Below are positions 2,487 through 26,690 of a DNA stretch of 64,000 nt, piece by piece (position 1 is the stretch's first letter; each line of letters starts with the position of its first letter). The notes beneath the pieces were generated by a model, which was not told where the DNA came from, did no database searches, and was given only the letters and a program-made list of their open reading frames with translations. The DNA lies in NCBI RefSeq assembly GCF_004339765.1, contig NZ_SMGO01000002.1, positions 1 to 64,000 of the forward strand, written 5' to 3'. Made by a program: the position numbers and the translations under genes. The DNA is from Albibacterium bauzanense. Its GTDB lineage: Bacteria; Bacteroidota; Bacteroidia; Sphingobacteriales; Sphingobacteriaceae.

Positions 2487-3542
2487 TTAAGATAATCCTA
2501 TTAATCTTCGATTATATTCTTCATTACTGCCTGTTGCAGCAAAATCATCAAAGGCTTTATCGGTTACATGGATAATATGATCAGCGATAAACTTTGCACC
2601 TTCAATAGCTCCATCTTCAGGATGTTTAATTGCACATTCCCATTCCATTACTGCCCAACCCTTAAAGTCGTAAGCAGCTAGCTTACTAAATATCGATTTG
2701 AAATCTACCTGTCCATCTCCTAGCGAACGGAAACGTCCGGCACGATCAATCCAATTAGAATAACCACCATACACACCTTGCTTTCCCGTCGGATTAAACT
2801 CAGCATCCTTCACATGAAACATTTTTATACGTTCATGGTAATAATCGATATAACTTAAATAATCCATAGATTGTAAAACAAAATGCGATGGATCATACAG
2901 TAAACATGCTCTTGAGTGATTATTCACTTTTTCAAGAAAACGTTCATAACTCACACCATCATGCAAATCTTCTCCAGGGTGAATTTCATAACACAAGTCA
3001 ATTCCATTTTCTTCATACACATCTAATATCGGTAGCCAACGTTTTGCCAACTCATTAAATCCAGTCTCTACCAGTCCAGCAGGGCGCTGAGGCCATGGAT
3101 AAACCGTATGCCAAAGCAGGGCGCCACTAAACGTTCCAGCTGCACTCAATCCTAAATTCCGGGAAGCCCTGGCAGCAAACTTCACTTGCTCTATGGCCCA
3201 TTCTGTTCTCGCTTTGGGATTGTTATGATATTGTTGTGGTGCAAAACCATCAAACATCTCGTCATATGCGGGATGAACAGCCACCAACTGCCCTTGAAGG
3301 TGTGTACACAATTCAGTAACTTCTAAGCCCCATTCATTAATCTTACCTTTAATTTCCTGAGCATAATCTTTACTTTCAGCTGCAAGTTTTAAATCAAAGT
3401 AAGAATTTGCCCAAGTCGGGATTTGAATTCCTTTAAATCCAATACTCTTTGCCCATTTACAAATAGACTCTAAATTATCAAAAGGTGGATTTTCACCTAG
3501 AAACTGAGCTAAAAATATACCGGGTCCTTTAAGCGTTTGCAT
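2487..3542 (-). CDS. Cytosolic TIM-barrel sugar isomerase/epimerase (xylose isomerase-like)
   Basis: 351 residues, no signal peptide, AP-endonuclease-2/xylose-isomerase-like TIM barrel. Likely metal ligands lie in LCYEIHPGEDLHDG, LLYDPSHF, MFHVKDAEF and VMEWEC. It is the last gene of the xylB-xylA-DUF1080-Gfo-TIM operon, 3 bp after the Gfo oxidoreductase. Family members next to Gfo and DUF1080 proteins have been implicated in 3-keto-sugar pathways, where they isomerise, hydrate or eliminate the keto-sugar. That role here is inference. It could also be a plain keto-sugar epimerase serving the oxidoreductase product. Confidence 0.85.
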   Translation of the reverse strand: MQTLKGPGIFLAQFLGENPPFDNLESICKWAKSIGFKGIQIPTWANSYFDLKLAAESKDYAQEIKGKINEWGLEVTELCTHLQGQLVAVHPAYDEMFDGFAPQQYHNNPKARTEWAIEQVKFAARASRNLGLSAAGTFSGALLWHTVYPWPQRPAGLVETGFNELAKRWLPILDVYEENGIDLCYEIHPGEDLHDGVSYERFLEKVNNHSRACLLYDPSHFVLQSMDYLSYIDYYHERIKMFHVKDAEFNPTGKQGVYGGYSNWIDRAGRFRSLGDGQVDFKSIFSKLAAYDFKGWAVMEWECAIKHPEDGAIEGAKFIADHIIHVTDKAFDDFAATGSNEEYNRRLIGLS

Positions 3543-3545
3543 AGT

Positions 3546-4709
3546 TTAATTATTTATTTCAAAAACAGTCCATTTTTCATTGCTCTCACCACTCTTCACT
3601 ACCGTATCTATAAAGGCCATTCCTCTAATACCGTCGTCAATAGAAGGAAAATCTAATAATTCTGATGGAGTAGTACCATCTATCTTTGCAGATAAAGTTA
3701 AGGCAAAACTACGATATAAATTTGCAAAAGCTTCAAGATAACCTTCCGGGTGACCAGCGGGAGTTCTACAATTAAATTTAGCTATATCAGATAAGAAACC
3801 GTTAGTTCCAGCTCGATAAGTTTGAGTTGGTTGAGTATGCCATTTTACCATTAGTGTATTAGGTTCCTGTTGTGCCCATTCCAATCCGCCTTTTTCTCCA
3901 TAGACACGAATCTTCAGAGCATTCTCCTCACCAGCTGCTATTTGAGATGCCATCAGTACACCTGCAGCTCCATTATCGAATTTTAACAATACATTCCCAT
4001 CGTCTTCTAATCTTCGTCCTTCTACCATTGTATTCAAATCAGCACAAAGATGTGTGATCTTCAATCCAGAGATATATTCTGCAAGATGGGCAGCATGCGT
4101 ACCAATATCACCCATTGCCCCGCTCTTACCAGACTTTTTAGGATCCGTTCTCCATGCCGCACCCGCATTACCCTCTCGTTCGGTTAATGTACTTAACCAC
4201 CCTTGAGGGTATTCAACATATATTTTGCGAATTTTGCCGAACATTCCTTCTTTTACCATTTGTTTGGCCTGCTTTACCATCGGATAACCTGAATAAGTAT
4301 GAGTTAATAATAATATCAACCCAGTCTCTTCAAGCTTTCTTTTTAATTGGAATGCCTCATCCAAACTAAAAGTAATTGGCTTTTCAACGACAACATTAAA
4401 ACCCTTATCCAATGCTAACATTGCCGGAGCAAAATGCGCATAATTAGGTGTTACAATGGTAACAAAGTCCATGCGGACATCAGGAGGCAACTGGCTTTCT
4501 TTCTCAATCATTTCTTCAAAGTTGAGATACACTCGTTCCTCTGGCAAAAACAACATTTTTCCACTATCCTCAGCTATCTGTGGGTCAATACTAAGAGCGC
4601 CACAAACAAGTTCGACAAGCCCGTCCATATTGGCAGCGTGTCTATGAATTGCGCCAATGAAGGCATCTTTCCCTCCTCCTACCATTCCCATTCGTAATTT
4701 CCTGTCCAT
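3546..4709 (-). CDS. Gfo/Idh/MocA-family oxidoreductase, cytosolic
   Basis: 387 residues with an N-terminal Rossmann fold (MGMVGGGKDAFIGAIHR near residues 7-23), the family EKP motif (VVEKPITFSLDEA, catalytic lysine) and the C-terminal GDIGTHAAHLAEY motif with the conserved histidines. No export signal, so it should use soluble NAD(P). The family oxidises or reduces one hydroxyl of a sugar, often at C3, or acts on inositols. It sits between an exported DUF1080 protein and a TIM-barrel isomerase, the trio found in 3-keto-glycoside operons of gut Bacteroides. Substrate is unknown; xylose-containing or fucose-containing sugars are suggested only by context. Confidence 0.88.
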   Translation of the reverse strand: MDRKLRMGMVGGGKDAFIGAIHRHAANMDGLVELVCGALSIDPQIAEDSGKMLFLPEERVYLNFEEMIEKESQLPPDVRMDFVTIVTPNYAHFAPAMLALDKGFNVVVEKPITFSLDEAFQLKRKLEETGLILLLTHTYSGYPMVKQAKQMVKEGMFGKIRKIYVEYPQGWLSTLTEREGNAGAAWRTDPKKSGKSGAMGDIGTHAAHLAEYISGLKITHLCADLNTMVEGRRLEDDGNVLLKFDNGAAGVLMASQIAAGEENALKIRVYGEKGGLEWAQQEPNTLMVKWHTQPTQTYRAGTNGFLSDIAKFNCRTPAGHPEGYLEAFANLYRSFALTLSAKIDGTTPSELLDFPSIDDGIRGMAFIDTVVKSGESNEKWTVFEINN

Positions 4710-4757
4710 AATATTTATTTTATTCAGTTTTCTAAATTCTTTAATTCAAATTAAAGA

Positions 4758-5570
4758 TTACAATTCTTTATAAAGTATATTCTTATACTGTACTTTAAAC
4801 GGCTGACCAACATGCATTTGAAATCCAATTAATCCTTCAGCAGTAAAGTTTTTCTTATCATCATCTAACAAAATGCTCATTAATTGACCGTTGACAATCT
4901 GAATAATTATATTCCCACGTGCAATAATATGAACCGTGTTCCAACCATTAATATTAAAAATACCTTTTAATAAAATAGGATCTCCAATCTTCGCTACTGA
5001 TTTAAATAAAGTTATTTCAGAATCATTAACCACTCTCGTCACTTCACCACGCTTTGATAAGACAAGCGCACTTCCTCCTTGCCATTCTCTTACAGTTCTT
5101 TCATCATGAATATTTCCAGAATAGCTATTATTAAAATCAATATCAGCCTGATATCCTCTAAGGATCCATTTACCCACTTCAGGCATTTCCTCACTTCTAT
5201 ATTGGATGCCACTATTAACTCCATTAATCCTAAAATCCACTTTTAGCTCAAAGTCCTTAACTACATCTCCCTTCCATATTAAAAAATTATTAATCTTAAC
5301 CGGATTATCTACGGTCGATTGACCGATGATTTCACCGTTTTCTACCCTCCAGAAAGCGGGATCTCCATCCCAGCCGGCTAGAGATTTACCATCAAAAATG
5401 GGAATAAACCCTAGACTGTCATCTTGTATAGTTGGTGGATAAACACCTCTAAATTGGGTTTGAGCAGATGAAAGTGTATTTTGAGCATTCGTTCTATTAA
5501 TGATAATTAATAGAACGAATACCACAATAATTTTAATTATTGACAGATATTTTCTTGTCCCTATTTCCAT
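4758..5570 (-). CDS. Exported DUF1080 (3-keto-disaccharide hydrolase-like) protein
   Basis: 270 residues. The N-terminus (charged start, then IIKIIVVFVLLIIINRTNAQ) is a Sec signal peptide ending near residue 30. The mature part is one DUF1080/PF06439 jelly-roll: GFIPIFDGKSLAGWDGD, GEIIGQS, FELKVDFRI, NSGIQYRSE, GYQADID and GLIGFQMH. This family has been renamed for cleavage of 3-keto-glycosides. Placed between xylose isomerase and a Gfo oxidoreductase, it may release xylose or a keto-sugar in the periplasm. The signal-peptide coding region carries a perfect 14-bp inverted repeat (5487-5520). Catalysis is not proven from sequence. Confidence 0.85.
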   Translation of the reverse strand: MEIGTRKYLSIIKIIVVFVLLIIINRTNAQNTLSSAQTQFRGVYPPTIQDDSLGFIPIFDGKSLAGWDGDPAFWRVENGEIIGQSTVDNPVKINNFLIWKGDVVKDFELKVDFRINGVNSGIQYRSEEMPEVGKWILRGYQADIDFNNSYSGNIHDERTVREWQGGSALVLSKRGEVTRVVNDSEITLFKSVAKIGDPILLKGIFNINGWNTVHIIARGNIIIQIVNGQLMSILLDDDKKNFTAEGLIGFQMHVGQPFKVQYKNILYKEL

Positions 5571-5621
5571 AGATATATTTATTAATCCAATAAATATATC
5601 TATTTAATTACAAATAATCTT

Positions 5622-6953
5622 TTAAATATATCGATTAATAAGGTTTTCTAAATACTCTTGTCTACCACTCCTACGTTCTGGTTCTCCATTAGCAATCGCA
5701 TATTCGCGTAGGTCCTCAAGTTTAAGTTTTCCACTTTCAAACTCCTTTCCCGATCCGCTGTCATAAGAAGCATAGCGATCCTTCCGTATCTTTTTATATT
5801 CAGATTTCTCTAAAATCTGGTCTGCAATAATCAAAGCTCTGGCAAAAATATCTACTCCACCTACATGTGCATAAAACAAATCAGCCGGATCTGTAGAATT
5901 TCTTCTGATTTTAGCATCGAAGTTAATTCCACCTCCTCCAAATCCATTGGATTCCAAAATAATAAGCATCGATTCTGTCAATTCGTTAATATCATTTGGA
6001 AACTGATCAGTATCCCAACCATTTTGATGGTCGCCTCTGTTCGCATCAATAGATCCAAGCGCACCTGCATCAGCAGCTATCTGAAGCTCATGTTGAAACG
6101 TATGTCCCGCTAATGTTGCATGGTTCACTTCAATATTTAATTTAAAATCACCTAAAAGATCGTACTGTCTTAAAAAGCCTAATACAGTAGCTGCATCATA
6201 ATCATATTGGTGCTTTGTCGGCTCACATGGTTTTGGCTCAATAAAGAATGTTCCTTTAAAACCTTGTTTTCTAGCATAATCCTTTGCCATATGTAAGAAT
6301 TTAGCAAAATGTTCCTGCTCCCTCTTCATATCTGTATTCAAAAGGGTCATATAGCCTTCTCTTCCGCCCCAGAACACATAATTTTCTCCACTTAAAGCAA
6401 TCGTAGCATCCAATGCCGCTTTAACTTGAGCAGCACCGTGACTCAATACATGAAAATCAGGGTTAGTAATCGCTCCATTCATATACCGCGGATGAGAAAA
6501 CAAATTTGCAGTTCCCCAAAGCAACTTTACACCGCTTTGTTTTTGTTTCTCCTGTGCGTAAAGAACCATCTTCTCTAATCTGCGTTCATTTTCTACAATA
6601 TCATCTCCATAATCTACCACATCAACATCATGAAAGCAATAATATGGAAGATTCATTTTTGTAATAAACTCAAACGCAGCATCCATCTTATCTTTTGCAC
6701 GCTCAATCGGGTCAGCTTTCTTATCCCATGGAAATGATAAGGTGGGTGCGCCGAAAGGATCACTACCGTTAGCATTAAAAGAATGCCAGTAAGCAACTGC
6801 AAACTTTAAATGGTCTTTCATACTCTTGCCCCTTACTACCTTATCTGCATCATACCATCTATATGCAAAAGGATTATCCGACTGCAATCCTTCATATTTA
6901 ATTTCTCCGATTCCCTTGAAAAATTCTTGATCTCCCAATATTGTTTTTGACAT
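5622..6953 (-). CDS. xylA: Xylose isomerase
   Basis: 443 residues, typical of class II bacterial xylose isomerases (about 440). Key residues are in place: catalytic CFHD with His108, VFWGGREGY at 193-201, FIEPKPCEP with Glu239 and Lys241, Glu275 and His278 in [14 protein letters not shown], Asp303, and Asp314/Asp316 in NGWDTDQFP. It converts D-xylose to D-xylulose in the cytosol with two divalent metal ions. It begins 17 bp after xylulokinase ends, in the same operon, under the LacI-type operator in front of xylB. Confidence 0.98.
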
Positions 6954-6970
6954 AATAATAATTTATTAAA

Positions 6971-8449
6971 TTAACTTAATTCTCTGATTAATAATTCTTC
7001 CCATTCTCGATAAACCTCTTCGTAAGAAGTGATAGCTTTGGGCTCAACTATCTTTATCGGTTTTATATTAGCAAATGCCTCTTCTGCAGAGGAAAAACTC
7101 TTATATCCAATACCTGCACCTAATGCAGCTCCAACACTTCCATCAGTTTGGTAAAGTTCTACCGGAACTCCAGTGGAGTTCACAAATGCATCAATGAATA
7201 AATCACTCATAAAAAGATTGGCTTTTCCAGCTCTGATGATATTAGGCCTCATTCCCATCTCTTTCATCCTATCTAAACCATATCGAAATGAGAAGGCAAT
7301 GCCTTCTTGGACAGCTCTAAAAATATGCGCTTGCGAATGTCTATTTAAATCAATATTATTTATATGTGCGCCTATAATCTTATTATTTAACATCCTCTCA
7401 GCCCCATTTCCAAAAGGTAGTACACGCAATCCTTCACTACCGACGGCTACCCTTTGCGCTTCTCTATTCATACCCTCATAACCTTCGTTAGATAAAAAAT
7501 TATTTTTAATCCAACGGTTTAATATTCCGGTACCATTAATGCAAAGCAAAACTCCCAAACGATTAACTTCCTTTGTATAATTTACATGTGCAAAGGTATT
7601 TACACGCGAATCTGAATCGTAAACTAATTGATCTGTAACTCCATATATTACGCCCGATGTTCCTGCCGTAGCTGCAACCTCTCCTGGTCTTAATACATTC
7701 AATGATAATGCATTATTTGGTTGATCGCCTGATTTATAAGTTACCGGAATTTCTGGCTTCAACGATAAAATATCTGCAACACTTTTACTAAGATTACCAT
7801 GCGCTGAAAATACTTCTTGAATCGGAGGAAACATTCCCCTATCAAAACCATAATACTCAATAATATCTTTCGATAAATCGTTCTCTTTAAAATCCCAGAA
7901 CACTCCTTCTGATAATGCAGATATACTTGTTGTAATATCTCCCGTTAGTTTCATTGCAATAAAATCTCCAGGAAGCATCACTTGGTATACCTGTTCAAAT
8001 ATATCAGGTTCATTCTCTTTCACCCAAGCTAGTTTTGCTGCAGTAAAGTTACTTGGAGAGTTCAAAGTACGACTTAAACACCTCTCATGCCCTATTCCAT
8101 CAAAAGCTCTATCTCCAATTTCAACTGCCCTACTATCACACCAAATAATGGAATTTCGCAAAACATGTTTATCCTTATCTACCAGAACTAACCCATGCAT
8201 CTGATAAGCGATACCGATAGCAGCAATATCTAACGGGTTATATATGCCTGACTTATTAAGCCTTAATATAGCCTTCTGTACATGTTCCCACCACATTTCC
8301 GGATCCTGTTCTGCCCAACCCACATTTTTTACTATTATCTCCGATTCTATATCAGGATATTGGGATGAAGCTATACATTGTTGATTAGCTGAATCAACTA
8401 CTGAAACTTTGATCGAAGATGTACCTACATCAATTCCTAATAATAACAT
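6971..8449 (-). CDS. xylB: Xylulokinase (FGGY family)
   Basis: 492 residues with the FGGY kinase start GIDVGTSSIKVSVV, the substrate segment YQMHGLVLVD, MLPGDFIAMKLTGD, the ATP-site segment EVAATAGTSGVIYG, and the C-terminal IRAGKANLFMSDLF. It phosphorylates D-xylulose to xylulose-5-phosphate, the substrate of the transketolase at the left edge. First gene of the five-gene operon that continues with xylA. A LacI-type operator lies about 70 bp upstream. Other FGGY substrates are possible in principle, but linkage to xylA makes xylulose by far the best call. Confidence 0.95.
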   Translation of the reverse strand: MLLLGIDVGTSSIKVSVVDSANQQCIASSQYPDIESEIIVKNVGWAEQDPEMWWEHVQKAILRLNKSGIYNPLDIAAIGIAYQMHGLVLVDKDKHVLRNSIIWCDSRAVEIGDRAFDGIGHERCLSRTLNSPSNFTAAKLAWVKENEPDIFEQVYQVMLPGDFIAMKLTGDITTSISALSEGVFWDFKENDLSKDIIEYYGFDRGMFPPIQEVFSAHGNLSKSVADILSLKPEIPVTYKSGDQPNNALSLNVLRPGEVAATAGTSGVIYGVTDQLVYDSDSRVNTFAHVNYTKEVNRLGVLLCINGTGILNRWIKNNFLSNEGYEGMNREAQRVAVGSEGLRVLPFGNGAERMLNNKIIGAHINNIDLNRHSQAHIFRAVQEGIAFSFRYGLDRMKEMGMRPNIIRAGKANLFMSDLFIDAFVNSTGVPVELYQTDGSVGAALGAGIGYKSFSSAEEAFANIKPIKIVEPKAITSYEEVYREWEELLIRELS

Positions 8450-8519
8450 AAATTCTATTTCCTAATAATAACAATTTCCGCATTTTTTCTCTTTTTTAAG
8501 CGGGGTTTTCAAAGCCCAA

Positions 8520-8533
8520 CGCCAACGTTTGCA
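8520..8533. promoter_or_regulatory. LacI-family operator, site 2 (xylB operon)
   Basis: CGCCAACGTTTGCA, matching site 1 in 13 of 14 positions, about 70 bp before the xylB start codon. It links the xylB-xylA-DUF1080-Gfo-TIM operon to the LacI regulator next door. Confidence 0.8.
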
Positions 8534-8640
8534 TTGAATTTGTAAAGCTAAAAAATATTACAATAAAATAAAACAAATACCTATTATCTTTATGAAACAC
8601 CATATAGAAATAGTTATTAAATGAGTTATGAACAATTGAA

Positions 8641-8697
8641 TGAATACCTGAAATTAATAAGATGTAAATAATACAATTTATTAATTTCAGGTATTCA
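8641..8697 (-). terminator. Terminator of the ThuA/dehydrogenase unit
   Basis: A perfect 20-bp inverted repeat (arms 8641-8660 and 8678-8697) with a 17-base loop, beginning 8 bp past the stop codon of the minus-strand dehydrogenase-cytochrome gene. No strong T-run follows, so it may also stabilise the message end. Confidence 0.75.
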
Positions 8698-8705
8698 AAT
8701 ATAGA

Positions 8706-10970
8706 TTAATTGTCTTTAGCAGATTCGGCTTCAAGCTCTTCCACCGTCCATGGTGTAGTCCTAGATTTCAATTTCTCTCTTAAAGCACTTACCTCTTCTG
8801 TACTTATGAAAGGTGAAACTCTATTAAAATTACCAAAATTTCCCGGTCCGCCGCGCAACTCGAAACGTGCATAACTTAAAATTGATGCAATCCAATCATC
8901 GCTATTATCTCCAAAAGGAGGCATAAAACCGCCTGGGTAATTTTCGCCATCAATAGCTCCGCTAATACCATTAAGCACTATTCGTATTGCTGTATTCTTA
9001 TCTCCTAATAATCTTCTTGACCCAACCAATGGTGGAGCAACCTTCGATGGAAGACCTTTTCCATCATCACCATGACAACTTGCGCATAATGCCCGGAAGA
9101 TTTCGGCACCTTTCAAAACATGATCACGGTCAGAAGCCGATAAAGAACCAAGCCTAACTCCATAATTTTTAATATTTTCAGTCTGCTCTAATGAAGCGAG
9201 AGTGGCGTTAAGCATTTCATTATTTTTATTCTCGGCCATAAGAGCATCAATCAGTGGTTGAGTAGCCTTCTTATTAACTGAAAGTGATAAAAGAAGCTGT
9301 GTACGAACATCATAATTCGGATCGGATTGAAGCACTTTTAACCTATCCATTATTTTTGCGTTATTCTCTCTAATATACGGTTCACTAATCCAAACCGCTG
9401 TTCTTCTTACTTGAGCATTTGGATCATCAAACGCGGCTATTAATATATTCTCATCAATCGAGTTAAGACCTTCAAGAGTCCATAAGGCATGAATCTTCGC
9501 CAAGTATGATAACTCTGAATCAGACGAACCTGTCACAATCTGTTTTAGTAAAGGCACTACAGATTTATCGCCAAGCACTACTAATTCCTTTTGAGCGTTA
9601 TCTCTCCACCATCCATTTGGATGAGATAAATGAGCCACCAACTGGGCTGGTGTTTCATTTAGCATTTTTGGCAAAGGTTGAGACTTATATCCATCATGAA
9701 CCAAACGGTAAATTCTTCCATGACCAACGTTGTCGCCAAATCCAAATCTATCGATCACTTTTCTAAGAAAAGATCCTGGTCTTGTCCAATTTCCTTGTTG
9801 AATGATACCACGATGCATATCTACTATATATAAATGCCCATCCGGACCTGTATAGGTATTTACTGGGCGAAAATTCATATCAGTTGAAGATATAAACTCT
9901 TGTCTATAATAGGCATTTTGAACCACTCGCTTACCTTTTAAGTTTAATACTTTTGCTCTTCTTATTAACCTACCAACGGGTTCTGCAACTATATAATCAC
10001 CTAATAAATCATTTGGCAATGCATTACCTCGGTAAATCGATTGACCTGCAGCTGCAGTAAAGTGATTCAATGTACTATCGGGACGTAATCTAAGTAATCC
10101 ACCTTGAACATCCGGTGTAGAAATAATAGGCCATACAGCATTAAATTCGTCACTATATTGATCTTTAAAATCAAGGGCTCCGTATACAGGGTTAATCTGA
10201 AACCTTTGAACAGCAATCTCCCCACCAGCGCGAGAATAGAATAATCTACCATAATTATCATGCGTTAAACCCCATTGTCCAGCCGAACCACTAATAATTG
10301 AATCTGCTTTCAAAACTCCATCAACATACCTAAATCGTATTGGCTCATAAGTCATGTACATCCAATTATCGAGGTTCCAATCCAAGCCGCTTCTTTGATG
10401 CTCCATATTAGCATCATTCGCAGAATAACTAGGATCTTCATAAACAATTCTCTTCGCATCTGCTTTACCATCTCCGTTCGTATCTTTATAAGCGGTTATA
10501 GTTATACTATTAGTTTCATTTATAAAAACTTCATCATTTACACATAATATCATTCTAGGAAGTAAGAGACTATCAACAAATATTGTACTCTTATCCATAA
10601 CTCCATCGTTATTAGTGTCTTCAAGCATTGAAACACGGCTAACAGGGCTTTGCTCACCAGAAGCGTTAGCATCTTGCATGTAAGTTAGCATCTCAGCAAC
10701 AAACATTCTTCCATTACCATCCCAGGCAATAGCAACTGGCTCTTTTATCATTGGTTCACTTGCAACCAACTCTAAATGATATCCTGGAGGTAAATTGAAA
10801 GTTTTCATACTTTCTTCCGGAGTCAAATATTCAGAACTAGGATTAGGATCGAACGTTCTTGCAGGGTATGGATTGTTTACCAAGCTAGTATCTTTTGATT
10901 TTATTGCTGTACAAGTGATGATTAACATGGAGATCATGATCATGCTAAAAATCCAAAGTGTCTTTTTCAT
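8706..10970 (-). CDS. Lipoprotein beta-propeller dehydrogenase with HEAT repeats and cytochrome c domain
   Basis: 754 residues. A lipoprotein signal ends in the lipobox LIITC (Cys20). Then comes a membrane-bound dehydrogenase beta-propeller (LTPEESMKTFNLPPGYHLEL, DTNNDGVMDKSTIF, GLDWNLDNWMYMTYEP), a HEAT-like stretch at about 440-590 (SHPNGWWRDNAQKELVVLGD), and a C-terminal class I cytochrome c: heme motif CASCH with a distal methionine in GGFMPPFGD. This architecture is widespread in Planctomycetes, Verrucomicrobia and Bacteroidota and is presumed to oxidise sugars or their derivatives and pass electrons to heme. It follows a ThuA gene by 24 bp and lies downstream of SusC/SusD pair 1. Cofactor of the propeller and substrate are not known. 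Confidence 0.85.
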   Translation of the reverse strand: MKKTLWIFSMIMISMLIITCTAIKSKDTSLVNNPYPARTFDPNPSSEYLTPEESMKTFNLPPGYHLELVASEPMIKEPVAIAWDGNGRMFVAEMLTYMQDANASGEQSPVSRVSMLEDTNNDGVMDKSTIFVDSLLLPRMILCVNDEVFINETNSITITAYKDTNGDGKADAKRIVYEDPSYSANDANMEHQRSGLDWNLDNWMYMTYEPIRFRYVDGVLKADSIISGSAGQWGLTHDNYGRLFYSRAGGEIAVQRFQINPVYGALDFKDQYSDEFNAVWPIISTPDVQGGLLRLRPDSTLNHFTAAAGQSIYRGNALPNDLLGDYIVAEPVGRLIRRAKVLNLKGKRVVQNAYYRQEFISSTDMNFRPVNTYTGPDGHLYIVDMHRGIIQQGNWTRPGSFLRKVIDRFGFGDNVGHGRIYRLVHDGYKSQPLPKMLNETPAQLVAHLSHPNGWWRDNAQKELVVLGDKSVVPLLKQIVTGSSDSELSYLAKIHALWTLEGLNSIDENILIAAFDDPNAQVRRTAVWISEPYIRENNAKIMDRLKVLQSDPNYDVRTQLLLSLSVNKKATQPLIDALMAENKNNEMLNATLASLEQTENIKNYGVRLGSLSASDRDHVLKGAEIFRALCASCHGDDGKGLPSKVAPPLVGSRRLLGDKNTAIRIVLNGISGAIDGENYPGGFMPPFGDNSDDWIASILSYARFELRGGPGNFGNFNRVSPFISTEEVSALREKLKSRTTPWTVEELEAESAKDN

Positions 10971-10994
10971 ATCTAATTTTTCAGATTATTTTAA

Positions 10995-11735
10995 TTATTT
11001 TGTCCGCCCCATAGCATATTTAATCCCTCCTAAAATATGCTTCACAAGAAGAGGATCGGTAATGGATTTTTCGTCATGGCCTAAAGCTGTATAGAAAGAA
11101 CGGCCTCCATCAAATGCATGAAACCAACTAATTGGATGAAATTCACCATTCTGGCCACCTTCATAGCTATTCTCGTCAACTGTAATCAAAACATCAAGCC
11201 CTTGACCAATCCATTTAAAGTTATAGATCTCATCAGTTTTTTCCCACTGTTGTGGTAAATGAGATGTTGATATATTATTCGCGTCAATTATATTCAATAA
11301 TACATCCTGTTGTCCACGAGGATGATTCTTAAAGTAGGCCCCTATAAGTTCACCATACCATGGCCAATCGTATTCAGTATCTGTAGCGGAGTGGATTCCA
11401 ACAAATCCTCCTCCTGATTGTATGTAATTCTCAAATGCTTCCTGTTGCTCATCATTTAAAACATCTCCAGTTGTACATAAGAAGACTACAGCGTCAAATT
11501 GTTTTAGGTTTTCAGAATTAAAAACCTGTGAATCTTCGGTAATTTCAACTTCAAAACTATTCTCCTTACCCAGTTGCTGAATTACTATTTGGCCAGCTGA
11601 TATAGCAGAGGAATGTCTAAATGTTACTGTTTTACTGAAAACTAATATTTTATTTGAATTAGCCAATAAATTTTCATTAAATGAAAGAATCAGGAAAAAA
11701 CAAAAAAGAAGTGATAAAGTAATTTTATTTTTCAT
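10995..11735 (-). CDS. Exported ThuA-domain protein
   Basis: 246 residues: Sec signal peptide (about residues 1-25, ending FNENLLANS) and one ThuA domain, a relative of class I glutamine amidotransferase folds. Signatures are ILVFSKTVTFRHSSAI, FDAVVFLCTTGDVL, GGGFVGIHSATDTEYDWPWYG and FYTALGHDE. ThuA was first named in rhizobial trehalose utilisation, where the thuAB genes are tied to 3-keto-sugar metabolism. It is immediately upstream of the cytochrome-bearing dehydrogenase. In the 1226-residue protein at 23010-26690 the same two domains are fused, so the two proteins probably work as a pair. Precise chemistry of ThuA is unsettled. Confidence 0.85.
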   Translation of the reverse strand: MKNKITLSLLFCFFLILSFNENLLANSNKILVFSKTVTFRHSSAISAGQIVIQQLGKENSFEVEITEDSQVFNSENLKQFDAVVFLCTTGDVLNDEQQEAFENYIQSGGGFVGIHSATDTEYDWPWYGELIGAYFKNHPRGQQDVLLNIIDANNISTSHLPQQWEKTDEIYNFKWIGQGLDVLITVDENSYEGGQNGEFHPISWFHAFDGGRSFYTALGHDEKSITDPLLVKHILGGIKYAMGRTK

Positions 11736-11884
11736 TTGATAGACGATTAGTATAATATTAGGAGTAATAGTCTCTTTTAATGAAGAGAGTGTTATAATTC
11801 AAGAGTTACTCCCTTATAATGTATGCTGTTCCTGAAATTAATTATTCATAAAGAGATTCATGAATATCAATAACAGTAATATAA

Positions 11885-11921: not shown

Positions 11922-11930
11922 ATTTTTTAT

Positions 11931-17331: not shown

Positions 17332-17373
17332 CAGTAAAATTAAAGTATCAATAATTTAGATTATAATCCAATA

Positions 17374-19431: not shown

Positions 19432-19442
19432 GTCAGATTAAT

Positions 19443-20852
19443 TTACCAGATGATCGAATATTCCAATGAGGAGATGTTTTTACTAAATGCGATTACAAGT
19501 TCGTCTGCATTTCGCGATTTTCTAATAATAGGCTTCAAACGTTCATTTACTTTTATATAATATGATTTCCCGTCTATAACATATAAACCCTTCCCTAAAG
19601 ATTCTATCACTTTACCGCTTGCTATTCTAAAATATAAATTTGTCGGTGCATTAGTAACACTAACCTCTCTTATCAAAGATTCTCCATTGGCTACCATTGA
19701 AATTTTATCATCAACATTAAATCCACTATACTCATAATGGAAAGTTACATTTTTGTTATTATCTAGAGAATAGCCTTTATTATGAAAATCATCAAATGGA
19801 ATTGAATCTGGCCATATAGAATCTGAATTACTTAATAAAGCAACCGATGGTGCAGAAGACAAAGTAATCAACGCTCCAAGTGGGGTAGCTAACTGGGGTT
19901 CACCTCTAGACTCCCACATATCAGTCGCATCAACAAATCCTCCTCGCCAAAATTGTAAAATGGATCCTTGTTTTAAATCATAAGAATAATTAGTATGATT
20001 AGGATTTCCTACTGATATTACGTGCGTGCGCTTGCCATTGTCGAACAATAAATAACTTCTTAATACATATGGTTCTGCTTTAGCTTCTACTATAATAGGA
20101 TTAACCATACGAAATCGCCTGGCAGCATCACCGGTTAATTGTTGAACAGGTTCTTCGAAGCTTTTATAACTTATATTTCTAAATGCTAAAACATGGTTCT
20201 CATCTGCTTGAAAAACGAGAGGCCCCTTTGTACTTTCATCATTAAAAATCGCTCCATCAGAAGGACCTTCTAATGAAATGCCTTGATGAATAAGCACTCC
20301 ATTCAAATATACCTCAGCAAAACTTGCTTTATCTACTTTCTTCCCTGAACTATCAAAAGTAGGAGATTTGAATTTCACTTTTAAATGTTGCCATAAACCA
20401 GGTGCTTTCCCAACATTACTTATAGGCTGCTTTGTATGAAAGGAAATACTACTTTCTGCTTTATTAACATCTATAGTTCCAATTCTAGATAGGGGATTTT
20501 GACTTTCCGGCCAACTATCAGATAATTGGATCTTATAACGTCCCATTATATATACGGCAGAATTACTTCCATTAGTTGTTAAAAAATCAAAATCTATTTC
20601 AGTATCGCCCTCCAATTGCAATCCAGATACTAAATTAGTTGCGCCTTTCATTGGAGTATTCACAACAATGCCATTTCCCTTAACAAACTTTGTTGTTGAT
20701 TTATTAAAATCTGTTATTAAATCAGAAACAATCAACCAATTTTCACCTGGTTTCTCGAATGCGTCAAAATTCGAAGTGGGAACAGAACTTTGAGAGAATA
20801 CATAATTCGAACATATTATGCTCCCTAGTAATAGCAAGACAACTTTCTTCAT
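19443..20852 (-). CDS. Exported DUF1080 protein with extra C-terminal domain
   Basis: 469 residues, Sec signal peptide to about residue 20 (LLLLGSIICSNYVFSQ). Residues about 30-235 look like a divergent DUF1080/LamG-type jelly-roll (TEIDFDFLTT, NSAVYIMGRYKIQL, GLWQHLKVKFKSP, AEVYLNGVLIHQG, HVLAFRNISYKSF). Residues about 240-469 form a second beta-rich domain I do not recognise (KAEPYVLRSYLLFDNGKRTH, GSILQFWRGGFVDATDMWES). Co-transcribed with the dehydrogenase-cupredoxin that follows. A role in binding or cleaving an oxidised glycoside is plausible from the DUF1080 part only. The FWRGGFVDATDMW segment contains several aromatic residues that could bind sugar. Confidence 0.75.
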   Translation of the reverse strand: MKKVVLLLLGSIICSNYVFSQSSVPTSNFDAFEKPGENWLIVSDLITDFNKSTTKFVKGNGIVVNTPMKGATNLVSGLQLEGDTEIDFDFLTTNGSNSAVYIMGRYKIQLSDSWPESQNPLSRIGTIDVNKAESSISFHTKQPISNVGKAPGLWQHLKVKFKSPTFDSSGKKVDKASFAEVYLNGVLIHQGISLEGPSDGAIFNDESTKGPLVFQADENHVLAFRNISYKSFEEPVQQLTGDAARRFRMVNPIIVEAKAEPYVLRSYLLFDNGKRTHVISVGNPNHTNYSYDLKQGSILQFWRGGFVDATDMWESRGEPQLATPLGALITLSSAPSVALLSNSDSIWPDSIPFDDFHNKGYSLDNNKNVTFHYEYSGFNVDDKISMVANGESLIREVSVTNAPTNLYFRIASGKVIESLGKGLYVIDGKSYYIKVNERLKPIIRKSRNADELVIAFSKNISSLEYSIIW

Positions 20853-20888
20853 AAAGCTATAATTTTAAAATTCGTTACAATTTAAAAA

Positions 20889-20932
20889 TTAAACGTCAGA
20901 TTTTTGTTACAATGCAAAAAATCTGACGTTTA
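20889..20932 (-). terminator. Terminator after the Gfo/TIM/fusion operon
   Basis: A perfect 17-bp inverted repeat (20889-20905 and 20916-20932; TTAAACGTCAGATTTTT and complement) with a 10-base loop. It lies between the stop of the Gfo gene at 20960 and the start of the DUF1080 gene at 20852, which separates the two operons. Confidence 0.85.
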
Positions 20933-20959
20933 AATAAGCAACAATAATAAGAGTCAATT

Positions 20960-22072
20960 TTAACTAAAGGTAAATTCAGGCAGATGCATAATCTCTCCTC
21001 CTTTCATTGCAGATTCATGTGCTAAAATACCTACACAGGTAATGTTAGCCGCCTCAACTGCATTAGGATAGGGTTGACGATTCTTCGATAATGAACTTAC
21101 AAACTCATGAACTAAATGGGGATGAGAACCACCATGTCCGGATCCCTGGATGAAAGAAAGATGCTGATGCCCTTCTAAATCATACACAGATTCAGTTGTG
21201 AATTCTTGAATCTCTGTAGGTAATAAGTGAGCATAATCCTTAATCTTAACTCTTTCCGGACTTTCTCCGGTATGAATAACGCTATCTTCATGTTCAATCA
21301 ATGTCCACTCAAAAGATTTTTTAGAACCATACACATCAAAACTCTCCCGGTATTGACGTGCTGTATTAAACAATGAACGGGTTACCTCAGCTGACAGATC
21401 GGAGTCCTTTAGCTTAATATGACAAGTTTCAATCGCAAAGGGAGAACCATATTTTGGTATCAGATTTTCATCAATCCTACCAGAACCGAAACAAGAAACA
21501 TATTCAGCAGAAGCTTTTGGAAGTGCCAAAACCGGACTAACACAATGGGTAGCATAATGCATAGGCGGTAATCCTTCCCAGTAACCTGGCCATCCACCCA
21601 TTTCCTGTTGATGCGATCCGCGCAGAAATTGAATCTTGCCTAATTCGCCATTTTCATATAATTCCTTTACAAACAAAAACTCCCGGCTATAAACCACGGT
21701 CTCCATCATCATATAGGTAAGCCCGGTTTCTTTTACAGCATCGACGATTCGTTTGCAATCCTCAACACTGGTAGCCATAGGAACTGTGCAGGCAACATGC
21801 TTTCCTGCACGCAAGGCTGCAATTGACTGCTCCGCATGGTTCTGAATCGGAGTATTGATATGAACCGCATCAACTTCCGGATCTTTCAACAATTCATCGA
21901 AATCTGTGTATCGCTTCTCAATCCCAAAAGCATTACCAATTTCCTCCAGTTTCTCTGTATTCCTCTGACAGATAGCATACATATTTGCATCTGGATGCTT
22001 TTGATAAATCGGAATAAATTCCGCCCCAAACCCTAATCCTACTATCGCTATATTTATTGGCTTATTACTCAT
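20960..22072 (-). CDS. Gfo/Idh/MocA-family oxidoreductase with atypical active site
   Basis: 370 residues, no signal peptide. Rossmann start INIAIVGLGFGAEFIPIYQ, VDAVHINTPIQNHAEQS, then KHVACTVPMATSVEDC where most family members have EKP. The catalytic lysine position therefore appears to be lost. Downstream PMHYATHCVSPVLAL retains a histidine at the usual site, and RLVHEF-like HPHLVHEFVSS lies near the end. Third gene of the operon headed by the ThuA-dehydrogenase-cupredoxin fusion, 44 bp after the TIM-barrel epimerase. Either this subgroup uses another residue for proton transfer, or it performs a different step such as isomerisation or binding. Fold assignment is firm; function is open. 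Confidence 0.85.
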   Translation of the reverse strand: MSNKPINIAIVGLGFGAEFIPIYQKHPDANMYAICQRNTEKLEEIGNAFGIEKRYTDFDELLKDPEVDAVHINTPIQNHAEQSIAALRAGKHVACTVPMATSVEDCKRIVDAVKETGLTYMMMETVVYSREFLFVKELYENGELGKIQFLRGSHQQEMGGWPGYWEGLPPMHYATHCVSPVLALPKASAEYVSCFGSGRIDENLIPKYGSPFAIETCHIKLKDSDLSAEVTRSLFNTARQYRESFDVYGSKKSFEWTLIEHEDSVIHTGESPERVKIKDYAHLLPTEIQEFTTESVYDLEGHQHLSFIQGSGHGGSHPHLVHEFVSSLSKNRQPYPNAVEAANITCVGILAHESAMKGGEIMHLPEFTFS

Positions 22073-22116
22073 TTCAAATTCTATTTACCTTATTAAAAAT
22101 CGTATCTAATAATCAT

Positions 22117-22980
22117 TTATTTCTCTTGCGACCACTTTCTTAAAAACTGCAAACCTTCCTCGGCAAAACCATCTTGACTTGGTACTAAAGGTCGCCACAT
22201 ACAAACAGCACCTGCTAACTCTTTATTGTCAGGAGTAAAACTTTCAATAGAAACAGTTTTATTATAATTAATTGCTGTTAACCCACGTTTATAGGCTCCC
22301 CAATTAGTTTCACCCGTTCCAGGTGTACCTCTGTAATTTTCCGATACTTGTAAGTGAACAAGCTTATCTCCAACGGAAATAATAGCTTTTTCAATATCTC
22401 GTTCTTCAATATTCATATGAAAGCCATCCAGAATAACCTTAGCTGAAGGATGATCAATATCTTTAATCAGCTTCATTACATCTTCAGCAGTATTTACAAG
22501 ATCCGATTCAAAACGATTAAGAGGTTCAATAGCTAACTCTACACCGAAATCCTCTGCCATTACACATGCTTTTCTGATGTTAACTACAGCACGATCCCAT
22601 TCAATCCGTTTCTGATCAGGAGATACCAAGCGTGCTTTTCCCACCGAAGAGTACATGGGGCCTGAAACAGATTCAGATCCCAATGCACTAGCTACTTTCA
22701 CACAAGCATGAATATAATCAAAACTAGTTTGATGATAAACAGGATCATCATTTGTAAAATCCCTGCTTGGACCAAATGCCCCACAAATCATCGCTTTTAG
22801 ATCATTTTTTAAGAGAGCTTCATTTACTTTCTCTACATCAATTAAAGAAGGGTCTTCTACTGGTATTTCAACAAAATCATAACCCATCCGCTTTATTTTG
22901 GGAAAAAGAGATAATGTATCAGAATTAAATGGCGATGTCCAAAGCCATGTACTAACACCAAACTTAATATCTAAGCCCAT
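22117..22980 (-). CDS. TIM-barrel sugar epimerase (tagatose/psicose 3-epimerase-like)
   Basis: 287 residues, the usual size of D-tagatose/D-psicose 3-epimerase and hydroxypyruvate isomerase relatives, cytosolic. Metal-site residues appear in order: IEPLNRFE, VILDGFHMNIEE, LVHLQVSENYRGTPGTG and VSIESF. Such enzymes move the carbonyl or invert C3 of keto-sugars using manganese. It lies 29 bp after the 1226-residue fusion gene and just before a Gfo oxidoreductase, so it should process the same intermediate. An exact substrate cannot be named. Confidence 0.88.
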   Translation of the reverse strand: MGLDIKFGVSTWLWTSPFNSDTLSLFPKIKRMGYDFVEIPVEDPSLIDVEKVNEALLKNDLKAMICGAFGPSRDFTNDDPVYHQTSFDYIHACVKVASALGSESVSGPMYSSVGKARLVSPDQKRIEWDRAVVNIRKACVMAEDFGVELAIEPLNRFESDLVNTAEDVMKLIKDIDHPSAKVILDGFHMNIEERDIEKAIISVGDKLVHLQVSENYRGTPGTGETNWGAYKRGLTAINYNKTVSIESFTPDNKELAGAVCMWRPLVPSQDGFAEEGLQFLRKWSQEK

Positions 22981-23009
22981 AAATTAATTTCCTTTTAATA
23001 AAGTCAAAC

Positions 23010-26000
23010 TTATTTAACTACTTTCATTACTCCTTGCATCATTCTCCAATGTCCCGGGAATGTACATACAAAAGGATAGTCCCCTACCTGTGATGGAGCA
23101 GTAAATTCTAAGACAGTGCTTTCGTCCGGATCTAACAATTTTGTAGCATGCAACACTTCTGGAATGCGGGGAACATAGGACAAAGAGGCTGCATTCGCAT
23201 TAAGTGCCATTTCATCGGCTGCCGCACCTACTTTATTTAGTGTTCCTGGTTTAATAATAATTAAATTATGTTGCATTTGATCTGGATTTGCAATACGAAT
23301 ACGTACTTTTTGACCAGCTTTAACCGTTACCAACTTCTTACTAAATGCCATCGCATTTGGAACAACATCTATTTGTAATACCGTTACATCCTGTGCAGGT
23401 GCATTCACAGGCTTAGCCGTTTCTGCAACAACTGTCTTAGCGGTGCCTGGTTTTCTTAATTCAATGGTAGCATCTTCCATACTCCCGGTAAATCTGAATG
23501 TACCTTCATAATCACCAATTTTATCATTAGTAGGTTCTTGAAGATCCTGAGAAGATCGCAAATTCAGGTCTAATGTCTTGGTAAATAATGCGGGAGCCTT
23601 ACCCTTAGCCACCTGCTTACCGTCCACTTCGATACTCATTTCTCCACCTGCCAGTAACTTAGCAACCAATTCATATTTTTCTGGTAAAGCAGCATTTGAA
23701 ACAGCCACATAAGATTTACCATCCTGCCGAACGATCATATTTAATTTGCCGTCCTGAATAAAGACTCCATAACCGTTTTCTCTTCCACCTTGACCCGCTA
23801 TAAAACCTTGAATAGGTGCATTCGGATCAATAGCAACCTGCTGACCTCCTGGGCCATTTGGACGGCCATCCTGCTGGCTTGCACGACCAATAGCAGCTTT
23901 AATGATAATTTCCTTGCCAACCACATCCGGGCTAAAAGCTACTGCGCCAACAGAACCTTGTCTGCGAGCTAAGGAATATATCTCGTTACTCAAACCCTGA
24001 ACAACCCGTTGAGTTAAGGTCAATTCGGTTGTACCTGAAGTCTTAAATCCAGCCGGCACTGATGACATAAATCCATCTTGATGTCTTATAGCTGCTGCAT
24101 ACAAAGCTTTTGAAATCCACTCATCTTTCGCATTCTCAGCATCCAGACTTGCTGTATATAATGCTTTACCTGCTTCTACGGAAGTCGGAAGTTGAGCCAC
24201 AACAACGAACGCATTCATGCGCGTATTCAGATCAGGATCCTTTAATAAACCAGCCTTTTGAATCAATGCAAATGTCTGCTCATTTTTAGGCAGCACTTCC
24301 AGAGCAGCTTTTCTGACACCAGCAGAAGGATGAGATAAAGCACCAACTACCGCTTGAGAAGCCTCAGAATTAGAGCCATCTAATACTTTTAAACCTTCCA
24401 AGGTCCATAAAGCATTAATTGCGGGGCCATTCAAACCAATTTCATCAACTTTTTTATCATTAATTAGTTTAATCAATCCCGGTATTGCTGCCTTATTATT
24501 ATTCTCAACCAATAAACGTTGTGCAGTCAATCGCCAAAATAAATTATCACTTTCCAAAGCGCCTAATAAACCAGCCGTGTTATCTTTAGAAAGACTAATG
24601 GGGGTATAAGGTTTAGCATCTTTATAAACAATTCGGTAAATACGACCTCGGTCTAGATCACGCATTGGAGTAATAAAAGCATTACCCTGACCATTTATAA
24701 ATTGCTTTCCTTCAGAAACGGTAGGTCCAGGAGTAGGGTTATGCTGAATAATGAAGTTATACCAATCAGCAACCCAAACAGCACCATCCGGACCAACCGT
24801 TGCCTGAACGGGACCTACCCACTCATCTGAACTTGCTAATAAGTTCCATCCATCTACCTCTTTATAACCTGCTCCACTACGCTCAATTATTGCATTATGA
24901 GTAAGTCTACCAGTAGGCTCATTTACAAATGCAATGCGATTCCAATATTCCTTAGGAAAATTCCTAGCCGTATAAAAATCATGACCAGCCGCGGCAGTAA
25001 AACCTCCATGCACATCTACCTGTCTTAAATTAGGAGTAAGCGTATGCATATCACCGTGACCCTGAATGATGGAAAGAGGAATAACTTGTTGAGCAACATT
25101 TCTTCCTCCAGGTCTTCCATTGCTATTCTGTGTATCAGAAGCTTGAACAATTCTTTCAGGGAAAGGTCTTTGCATCAATTGATAAGGCATTGAGTAATAA
25201 TCACTGTGATTACCGTTGGCTGTAGAAACAAAAACATTATTATCTTCCGTAAATCCTAAACCCCAGGTATTATTATTCGAATTTGCTAAAAATTCAAAAT
25301 CAGTGCCATCAGGGTTAAAACGATAAACTCCTTGAGCAAACCTAAAACTCTTATTATCGATGGTATTATTAAATCCAGAATAACCAACTACCCCCCAAAT
25401 CTTATTATCAAAACCATATCTTAAATTTGAAGGTCCTGCATGTGTATCATTCTTACCCCAACCTTCCATAAATTCCTGACGAAGATCCGCTTTATCATCC
25501 CCATCTGTATCCTTCAAGAAAACCATATGGGGAGCCATCGATATAATCACACCTCCATTCGCAAATACGATGCTGGAAGGGATATTAAGACTATCTGCAA
25601 AAATTGTAAATTTATCTGCTCTTCCATCACCATCGGTATCTTCTAATATCTTAATTCGATCGTTAGCAGCACCATCCGTTTCCACAAAAGTATTTGGATA
25701 ATCTACTGACTCTACAATCCACAACCGCCCTCTTTCATCCCAAGACATCGCAATCGGATTCGTTATATCAGGCTCTGCTGCAAAAAGTTTAACTTCGAAA
25801 TCAACCGGTACCTGCATTAAATCCATAGACTCTTCGGGTGTCAAGGCATATTGAAACTTTGGTGCAGGATCCCGTTTCTCATAATTAGGAACAATGATCG
25901 TATCGTTATATAAAACCTTCGGAGTTTTAAATGCTGCAATTTCAGCCTGAACTTTATCACCGATAGCCCACAATACTCCGTTTCCAATCAACTTCTGAAA

Positions 26001-26690
26001 CATCGGATTTGTCCAGGTGCTGTCATTATGACCGTAAGCAGTATAAAACACTCTTCCTTTTCCCTGATTACGAACCCAGGTCCAAGGCTCTTTCACACCA
26101 TTTTCTACACGTTCCTGCAATACCGTTTTATCAGGATTTATGTTACTATGAACATAGGTTTCATCCCAGGTCTCAAACTCATTAATACCTTCCATAACCG
26201 GATGAGTCTTGTTAACATTTACTGCGGTGAAATGACCGGTTTTATGCGATTTAAACTGACCTCCAATAGCTTGGATATACCACGATGAATTAACAAAACT
26301 CGCTGATGCAGAATGAATCGGGATCAATCCCTTTCCGCCTTCTACAAAGTCTTTTATCACTTTTTCTTTAGCCGGAGAGATCTTATCATAATTAGCATAG
26401 ATAATCAGCCCGTCATATTTATTTAAATTTGCTGCATTAAGATCATTCGTATCGGTAGTATAAGTGATATTAATACCACGGGCAAACAAAGGAATGCTAA
26501 GCATAGGAGCAAACTTCCCGGAATTATGATGCGTATCTTTATGTCCTAAAAATAACACTTCAGCCCTACGCCCCGGAGGTTGCTGTTTGTCATTCTTGTC
26601 TCTTATATTAATTGAATGGTTATAAATACCGTTTGCAAGACTGCTAAGCAAAACACCGCTAAACAGCATTAAAAAGAAAATCTTCTTCAT
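23010..26690 (-). CDS. ThuA / dehydrogenase / HEAT / LamG-like / cupredoxin fusion protein
   Basis: 1226 residues, exported (MLFSGVLLSSLANG). Domains in order: ThuA at about 42-245 (AEVLFLGHKDTHHNSG, FNTAYGHND-like VFYTAYGHND); beta-propeller dehydrogenase at about 280-690 (LTPEESMDLMQVPVDFEVKL, DTDGDGRADKFTIF, GHDFYTARNFPKEYWNRIAF); HEAT-like repeats at about 700-850; a LamG-like segment at about 930-1080 (GYGVFIQDGKLNMIV, GDYEGTFRFTGSMEDATIEL); and a C-terminal type 1 copper domain with MQHNLI and FVCTFPGHWRMMQG. It heads an operon with a TIM-barrel epimerase and a Gfo enzyme, behind two LacI-type operators. The same modules are separate or carry cytochrome c elsewhere in the window, so this fusion ties them functionally. 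The substrate is unknown. Confidence 0.87.
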   Translation of the reverse strand: MKKIFFLMLFSGVLLSSLANGIYNHSINIRDKNDKQQPPGRRAEVLFLGHKDTHHNSGKFAPMLSIPLFARGINITYTTDTNDLNAANLNKYDGLIIYANYDKISPAKEKVIKDFVEGGKGLIPIHSASASFVNSSWYIQAIGGQFKSHKTGHFTAVNVNKTHPVMEGINEFETWDETYVHSNINPDKTVLQERVENGVKEPWTWVRNQGKGRVFYTAYGHNDSTWTNPMFQKLIGNGVLWAIGDKVQAEIAAFKTPKVLYNDTIIVPNYEKRDPAPKFQYALTPEESMDLMQVPVDFEVKLFAAEPDITNPIAMSWDERGRLWIVESVDYPNTFVETDGAANDRIKILEDTDGDGRADKFTIFADSLNIPSSIVFANGGVIISMAPHMVFLKDTDGDDKADLRQEFMEGWGKNDTHAGPSNLRYGFDNKIWGVVGYSGFNNTIDNKSFRFAQGVYRFNPDGTDFEFLANSNNNTWGLGFTEDNNVFVSTANGNHSDYYSMPYQLMQRPFPERIVQASDTQNSNGRPGGRNVAQQVIPLSIIQGHGDMHTLTPNLRQVDVHGGFTAAAGHDFYTARNFPKEYWNRIAFVNEPTGRLTHNAIIERSGAGYKEVDGWNLLASSDEWVGPVQATVGPDGAVWVADWYNFIIQHNPTPGPTVSEGKQFINGQGNAFITPMRDLDRGRIYRIVYKDAKPYTPISLSKDNTAGLLGALESDNLFWRLTAQRLLVENNNKAAIPGLIKLINDKKVDEIGLNGPAINALWTLEGLKVLDGSNSEASQAVVGALSHPSAGVRKAALEVLPKNEQTFALIQKAGLLKDPDLNTRMNAFVVVAQLPTSVEAGKALYTASLDAENAKDEWISKALYAAAIRHQDGFMSSVPAGFKTSGTTELTLTQRVVQGLSNEIYSLARRQGSVGAVAFSPDVVGKEIIIKAAIGRASQQDGRPNGPGGQQVAIDPNAPIQGFIAGQGGRENGYGVFIQDGKLNMIVRQDGKSYVAVSNAALPEKYELVAKLLAGGEMSIEVDGKQVAKGKAPALFTKTLDLNLRSSQDLQEPTNDKIGDYEGTFRFTGSMEDATIELRKPGTAKTVVAETAKPVNAPAQDVTVLQIDVVPNAMAFSKKLVTVKAGQKVRIRIANPDQMQHNLIIIKPGTLNKVGAAADEMALNANAASLSYVPRIPEVLHATKLLDPDESTVLEFTAPSQVGDYPFVCTFPGHWRMMQGVMKVVK

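Follow-up and report, generated by a model that had tools for sequence, protein, structure and literature searches.

The first 64,000 nucleotides of contig NZ_SMGO01000002.1 of Albibacterium bauzanense, here called the window, are predicted to encode a plant-type sugar uptake block in which large secreted proteins have built-in copper or heme carriers. The block between 2.4 and 30.4 kb is probably a SusCD glycan locus in which classical trimming, by a GH95 glycosidase and an esterase, is combined with the later steps, or downstream half, of the non-hydrolytic 3-keto-glycoside pathway. It appears to represent a previously undescribed variant of this known pathway, tied to SusCD uptake and xylose metabolism. 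Gene content was determined by open reading frame (ORF) calling and Pfam, with finer assignment by NCBIfam and TIGR models and PDB sequence matches, and proteins are termed secreted, cytosolic or Tat-exported from their N-terminal sequences only. From 30393 down to 2487 every gene is called on the minus strand, with mostly short gaps, in the order GH95, esterase, FUS (a secreted fusion protein), TIM2, GFO2, DUF1080b, DUF7133-azurin, SusC, SusD, ThuA, DUF7133-cytochrome c, XylB, XylA, DUF1080a, GFO1 and TIM1.

From gene content, hydratase orthology, operon conservation and the heme and copper sites we infer the following route. The SusCD system would import fucose- and xylose-bearing oligosaccharides, which GH95 and the esterase would trim. 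In the periplasm, a respiratory dehydrogenase would oxidise the terminal sugar, most likely at C3; candidates are a DUF7133 protein that carries a cytochrome c or azurin domain of its own, a Tat-exported Gfo oxidoreductase resembling BT2158 (52702), and a LacA-like GMC complex encoded on another contig. A secreted DUF1080 protein would then cleave the 3-keto-glycoside, and XylA and XylB would convert xylose to xylulose 5-phosphate. The FUS-TIM2-GFO2 genes may constitute a related, separate oxidative module, in which FUS would oxidise sugar outside and TIM2 and GFO2 would rearrange the imported keto sugar.

The initial annotation of this DNA had described the toolkit as four repeated sets, at 2487-5570 (set 1), 8706-11735 (set 2), 17374-26690 (set 3) and 48295-56024 (set 4). 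All four are present, and ORF calls and Pfam agree with it on the position of each named gene, but the sets are not copies of one another: set 2 lacks Gfo, TIM and DUF1080 genes, and ThuA occurs in sets 2 and 3 only. For sets 1 and 4, which encode an orthologue of PDB 8RO4 and a BT2158-like Gfo, respectively, the kind of keto-sugar pathway that it proposed looks right; for sets 2 and 3 it is plausible, for the latter with a reservation given below. Co-occurrence in other genomes, which had been named beforehand as a test and whose absence was to count against the proposal, was found: the modules recur in many genomes.

The hydratase and its genomic company

The keto-sugar reading of set 1 is well supported. 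TIM1 (2487-3542, minus strand; PF01261, 129 bits), predicted to be cytosolic, matches PDB 8RO4, deposited as a 2-hydroxy-3-keto-glucal hydratase, over its full length (67% identity, 350 residues). Its score is 578 bits against the keto-glucal hydratase and 46 bits against the IolE structure 3cny, and on these scores inositol catabolism was rejected for set 1. Next to it are GFO1 (3546-4709, minus strand; PF01408/PF02894), a cytosolic Gfo/Idh/MocA oxidoreductase predicted to be a 3-keto-sugar reductase, and DUF1080a (4758-5570, minus strand; PF06439, 106 bits), which has a hydrophobic signal and is predicted to be a secreted 3-keto-glycoside lyase/hydrolase. Set 1 is supported as the source of the hydratase and, with its activity predicted, the Gfo protein of the non-hydrolytic pathway. 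A second GFO1 paralogue (71% identical), with no adjoining TIM1, occurs elsewhere in the same genome (contig C2, 239920-241077; locus L195).

The pathway of Agrobacterium tumefaciens comprises oxidation of C3 by a GMC dehydrogenase and elimination of the aglycone by a TIM-barrel lyase; another TIM barrel hydrates the glycal, and 3-keto-glucose is reduced by a Gfo protein (PMC10628242; restated in PMC13273386). TIM1 with its adjoining Gfo gene is reminiscent of that four-enzyme operon (GlycDH, AtOGE, AtHYD and Gfo; PMC10628242), and in relatives additional TIM barrels and a GMC dehydrogenase are present as well. The window differs from the operon in that it has no GMC gene, a DUF1080 protein in the likely lyase role, XylA-XylB joined to the set and SusCD beside it.

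Searching 247 genomes of the class for GFO1 at E<=1e-60 gave matches in 27, and TIM1 has a match in 29 relatives. Among 35 TIM1 loci of other Bacteroidota, 31 contain GFO1, 23 contain DUF1080 and 16 contain a BT2158-like Gfo, and LacA-like GMC dehydrogenases, Gluconate_2-dh3 and nucleoside-type symporters each occur in 21. Small CxxCH cytochrome c proteins are found in 22/35 loci, along with one large propeller-cytochrome protein. By association, these neighbours point strongly to a keto-sugar role. Two other readings of these loci were rejected. Matches labelled GSDH in the GMC operons are, by their length of 120-175 amino acids, nearly all CxxCH cytochromes and not propellers, and a division of the hydratases into two clean clades, one with GMC linkage and one lacking it, is not supported by the tree, which shows at least seven label changes.

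A likely xylose link

A gene at 5622-6953 (minus strand) that had been counted as a TIM-barrel member of the toolkit is instead the xylose isomerase XylA (TIGR02630, 682 bits; cut-off 533). Next to it lies a xylulokinase-like FGGY kinase, XylB (6971-8449, minus strand), which scores 296 bits to TIGR01312, under its cut-off of 380. XylB, XylA, DUF1080a, GFO1 and TIM1 form one operon with gaps of 3-51 bp. In a relative from another genus (genome G260), XylB-XylA-TIM1 is found beside a LacI gene, with a DUF1080-like gene nearby, and in a member of the same genus (G247) TIM2-GFO2-FUS-SusC-SusD lies beside XylA-XylB. The LacI-type regulator of the window (1408-2430, plus strand; PF00356/PF00532) has a 56% homologue flanking XylB-XylA in both genomes. 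As the combination of XylB, XylA and the hydratase also occurs in a second genus, these arrangements suggest that the freed sugar is likely to be xylose in many cases.

Candidate dehydrogenases, electron carriers and DUF1080 proteins

Set 2 consists of a secreted protein combining a DUF7133 propeller with HEAT and cytochrome c domains (8706-10970, minus strand; Pfam, CxxCH at residue 629) and a secreted stand-alone ThuA (10995-11735, minus strand; PF06283, 247 bits). Both genes form a single run with GFO1-TIM1 in genome G258, and the pair directly follows TIM1 in G264. These loci belong to two genera and neither contains GMC; conversely, the pair is present in 0 of the 21 TIM1 loci that hold GMC. 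The counts fit a DUF7133-cytochrome protein taking the dehydrogenase role and are too small for a firm claim of replacement. The roles of ThuA and DUF7133 are putative.

In agreement with the earlier suggestion that the locus has its own electron carriers, the window encodes two heme domains with CxxCH and a pair of azurin-type domains. It contains no GMC gene; LacA-like GMC dehydrogenases are encoded on contig C1 of the same genome at 447 kb and 462 kb. Since GMC, Gluconate_2-dh3 and symporter genes are kept together at 447 kb, they could provide the oxidation step in trans. In Caulobacter, genetic evidence connects LacABC and DUF1080 with the use of lactose, and Pedobacter has a LacABC-like dehydrogenase (PMC9007349). 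Like the LacABC lactose 3-dehydrogenase with DUF1080 (PMC9007349), the genome has GMC and Gluconate_2-dh3, as well as many DUF1080 domains, yet these two genes lie outside the window, where the electron carriers are instead domains of large propeller proteins.

Set 4 resembles a periplasmic oxidation-cleavage set. It includes TIM3 (48295-49305, minus strand; PF01261, 37 bits), a TIM barrel with a Tat signal; a lipoprotein with GSDH propeller, PKD and cytochrome c domains (49553-52420, minus strand; PF07995, 130 bits; CxxCH at residue 661); GFO3 (52702-54189, minus strand); and, on the opposite strand, a GDPD gene (54430-55200; Pfam) and DUF1080c (55209-56024, plus strand), predicted to be secreted and matching PF06439 with 155 bits and PDB 4qhz with 252 bits. 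GFO3 has a Tat signal and scores about 300 bits to PDB 8tdf/8tdh. It is BT2158-like, and any equivalence of set 4 to the BT2156-BT2160 operon, cited earlier as background, is tentative. The 438 bits of GFO3 to the curated equivalog model of the BT2158 glycoside 3-dehydrogenase (NF058561) are under the cut-off of 750; it belongs to the same wider family. As judged by the names given in NCBIfam and the PDB and by papers that cite the original work, the 3-keto-disaccharide operon of Bacteroides thetaiotaomicron (BT2157/BT2158) is matched by a BT2158-like Tat Gfo near a secreted DUF1080 protein and a Tat TIM barrel; the window appears to differ from it in the score of GFO3, in having DUF1080c on the other strand with GDPD and in the added GSDH-cytochrome c protein. 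The SusD-SusC-TIM3 unit (42797-49305) has close paralogues (70%, 85% and 75%) at 759-765 kb of contig C2, beside another DUF7133 gene.

DUF1080a, DUF1080b and DUF1080c (106, 58 and 155 bits) all score above the gathering cut-off of 26.8 for PF06439, the 3-keto-disaccharide hydrolase family, and a C-terminal QxH motif is kept in DUF1080a and DUF1080c. According to the account in PMC13273386, the catalytic histidine of the B. thetaiotaomicron lyase is H275, for which the histidine of the QxH motif is a candidate counterpart.

A conserved operon of FUS, TIM2 and GFO2

Set 3 is the least known part of the locus and the one most worth experiments. FUS (23010-26690, minus strand) is a secreted fusion of ThuA, DUF7133 propeller, HEAT, jelly-roll and azurin domains, as indicated by Pfam and a structure model. 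TIM2 (22117-22980, minus strand) is a cytosolic TIM barrel resembling ketose 3-epimerases, and GFO2 (20960-22072, minus strand) is a cytosolic protein with a Gfo fold by Pfam. The set also contains DUF1080b (19443-20852, minus strand), which joins a weak PF06439 match to an uncharacterised C-terminal half, and a secreted protein with a weak DUF7133-like propeller (PF23500, 33 bits) and an azurin-type cupredoxin (PF00127, 45 bits) at 17374-19431 (minus strand). A second SusC-SusD-DUF1080b-DUF7133-azurin unit is found at 776000-790000 of contig C1 (L217), with 35% and 45% identity to the window's pair.

When one genome was scanned for each species, 274 relatives of FUS were identified, the closest named record being from a Sphingobacteriaceae metagenome-assembled genome (65%). 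In 69 of the best 79 of these 274 loci, FUS, TIM2 and GFO2 lie on one strand within 4 kb; seven of the remaining ten hold one partner, and one more stops at a contig edge. The operon occurs in two forms. The first, found mostly in Algoriphagus and its relatives, has FUS-TIM2-GFO2 preceded by a divergent AraC gene, and GFO2 and TIM2 are 81-85% and 60-74% identical to those of the window. The second has the order SusC-SusD-DUF3823-FUS-ThuA-GFO2-TIM2, with GFO2 and TIM2 about 50% and 45% identical, and is accompanied by GH43, GH2, GH5, UPF0261 or PEP_hydrolase genes. These glycoside hydrolases show that the earlier description of an oxidative toolkit in place of hydrolases is not general. The UPF0261 (Tm-1-like) and PEP_hydrolase-like genes that follow SusCD-FUS-ThuA-GFO2-TIM2 (L031, L045 and similar loci) hint at further cleavage of the product.

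Residues 27-1226 of FUS were modelled by AlphaFold2 with a mean pLDDT of 81.5. Foldseek finds in the model a ThuA domain, an auracyanin/azurin domain, for which auracyanin structures are the best matches, and a propeller akin to gluconolactonase-like and glucose-dehydrogenase folds. The type I copper ligands H1141, C1209, H1214 and M1218 are invariant in all 76 orthologues that have the domain, and the propeller histidine H417 in 82 of 82. The DUF7133 propeller is shared with PVC-type DUF7133/TIGR02604 proteins, as are the HEAT and cytochrome c domains of the set 2 protein (8706-10970); FUS differs from these in having ThuA in front and an azurin domain replacing the heme. A literature search on the combination of ThuA, azurin and DUF7133 found nothing relevant.

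TIM2 clearly belongs to the superfamily of the D-tagatose 3-epimerases in the PDB (E=2.7e-38), although its 173 bits are under the cut-off of 300 of the D-tagatose/D-psicose 3-epimerase equivalog model NF051856. Its residues E152, D185 and E246 are invariant, and Q211 is kept in 71 of 72 sequences. GFO2 has valine in place of the canonical EKP lysine, and valine or isoleucine stands there in 75/76 sequences. That GFO2 is so well conserved while lacking the usual catalytic residue is the strangest finding at the locus. Within its main orthologue group GFO2 is 81-86% conserved, and across several Cytophagales genera it is 81-85% identical, compared with about 50-65% for its operon partner FUS. 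Because TIM2 resembles ketose 3-epimerases and GFO2 lacks the lysine, set 3 is probably not simply another 3-keto-glycoside set. We tentatively suggest that it might instead be a sugar pathway of a new respiratory type, present in Cytophagales, Sphingobacteriales and Chitinophagales. A secreted single-chain enzyme would take the place of the LacABC complex, oxidising glycans or glycosides and handing the electrons to a copper domain of its own, and within the cell the keto product would be rearranged by an epimerase together with a non-canonical Gfo protein.

Weighing the proposed pathway

Several observations weigh against the proposed 3-keto-glycoside route. Oxidation at C3 by proteins of the window is something that we infer; the DUF1080 proteins are remote from characterised ones (23-34 bits), DUF1080b lacks the QxH motif and GFO2 the lysine. 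The link between XylA/XylB and TIM1 is found in two genomes only, most TIM1 loci being without it. PqqE was not found at E<=0.001 in the 99% complete genome, and therefore any propeller that depends on PQQ would have to obtain it by import. When profiles of the DUF7133 and GSDH propellers were compared, no convincing match emerged, with only two full-length sequences on the GSDH side.

One competing explanation, which we consider doubtful, is that the DUF7133, ThuA and azurin proteins are surface or periplasmic binding or electron-shuttle proteins, and that oxidation is carried out wholly by the GMC complex elsewhere and the exported Gfo. The GMC and Gluconate_2-dh3 pair in the genome and the frequency of GMC among TIM1 loci are consistent with this, and Pfam gives DUF7133 no function. 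Invariance of H417 and of the copper site in FUS speaks against this reading, as does the adjacency of ThuA and DUF7133-cytochrome genes to TIM1, without GMC, in two genera.

An unlikely alternative is that oxidation takes place at C1 and not at C3. Both kinds of propeller, GSDH and DUF7133, would then act like soluble glucose dehydrogenases (sGDH), turning aldoses into lactones that feed sugar-acid routes such as the predicted fucose block, and sets 2-4 would not cleave keto-glycosides. The PF07995 propeller at 49553-52420 keeps sGDH-like HRN and GEVGPD stretches, the FUS propeller matches glucose/pyranose dehydrogenase folds (7cgz, 6jt5), and the fucose oxidation block lies within the window. 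TIM1 of set 1, an orthologue of a 3-keto-glycal hydratase, speaks against C1 oxidation, as do the recurrence of the sets with DUF1080 and BT2158-like Gfo proteins and the lack of a detectable PqqE.

It is very improbable that the Gfo and TIM proteins are mere SusCD neighbours handling inositols or free sugars. Matches under cut-off to IolG- and IolE-type profiles and the likeness of TIM2 to free-ketose epimerases are in favour of this reading; against it, TIM1 scores far higher to the hydratase than to IolE, and co-location with SusCD, DUF1080 and GH43/GH2/GH5 is conserved.

Clustering of toolkit families

The 3-keto-glycoside route proposed here involves families that are abundant in the genome (3.08 Mb; G000 in our numbering, in which C1, C2 and C3 are its contigs, other G numbers are genomes of relatives and L numbers are loci). 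Profile scans identified 18 DUF1080 domains, 12 DUF7133, 6 ThuA and 23 SusD, and, above cut-off, 13 Gfo and 15 TIM. Across the whole genome, 9/18 DUF1080, 8/12 DUF7133, 7/13 Gfo and 7/15 TIM genes have a member of a different toolkit family at a distance of 5 kb or less. The expectation from circular shifts is only 1.4-1.9 genes, and 0.1-0.6% of 2000 shifts reach the observed count. Clustering of the toolkit families thus exceeds chance, outside the window too. A further cluster outside the window, at 52000-69000 of contig C3 (L207, L208), comprises a two-domain DUF1080 protein, Gfo, ThuA, TIM, DUF7133 and SusCD.

Other genes in the window

The window contains three SusC/SusD pairs, one more than had been reported. 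In the first, SusD (11931-13760; PF07980) and SusC (13771-16971; PF13715/PF07715) are on the minus strand; the second, identified by Pfam, has SusC (30868-34125) and SusD (34112-35842) on the plus strand; and the third (SusD/SusC, starting at 42797 and 44616; Pfam) occupies 42797-48023 of the minus strand. As had been noted, the only glycoside hydrolase recognised by Pfam is the secreted GH95 protein of the alpha-L-fucosidase family (27919-30393, minus strand; PF22124, 610 bits); two PF00756 esterases are also present. One of these (26904-27794, minus strand), predicted to be secreted, has as its best NCBIfam match the C-terminal part of a xylanase/feruloyl esterase (NF041944, 137 bits, under cut-off).

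Between 35989 and 41305 on the minus strand, Pfam identifies genes for a zinc alcohol dehydrogenase, an amidohydrolase, an aldo-keto reductase, an MFS transporter and an esterase. This block would fit the GH95 gene as a route of L-fucose oxidation. A transaldolase or fructose-6-phosphate aldolase-like gene at 472-1125 (minus strand; PF00923; TIGR00875, 270 bits, above cut-off) may provide a pentose phosphate sink. Another Gfo gene starts at the right end of the window (63418-63795). No RNA features were found in the window at Rfam thresholds.

Implications

Routes that oxidise, cleave, hydrate and reduce glycosides have become known only recently, and how far they extend among environmental Bacteroidota is largely uncharted. 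The locus described here would tie such a route to SusCD uptake and the xylose isomerase pathway, and predicts a 3-keto-xyloside branch. It also draws attention to a strictly conserved operon in which the Gfo protein is without the catalytic lysine of its family, and may offer a functional context for DUF7133, ThuA and DUF1080, which are abundant and mostly unassigned families.

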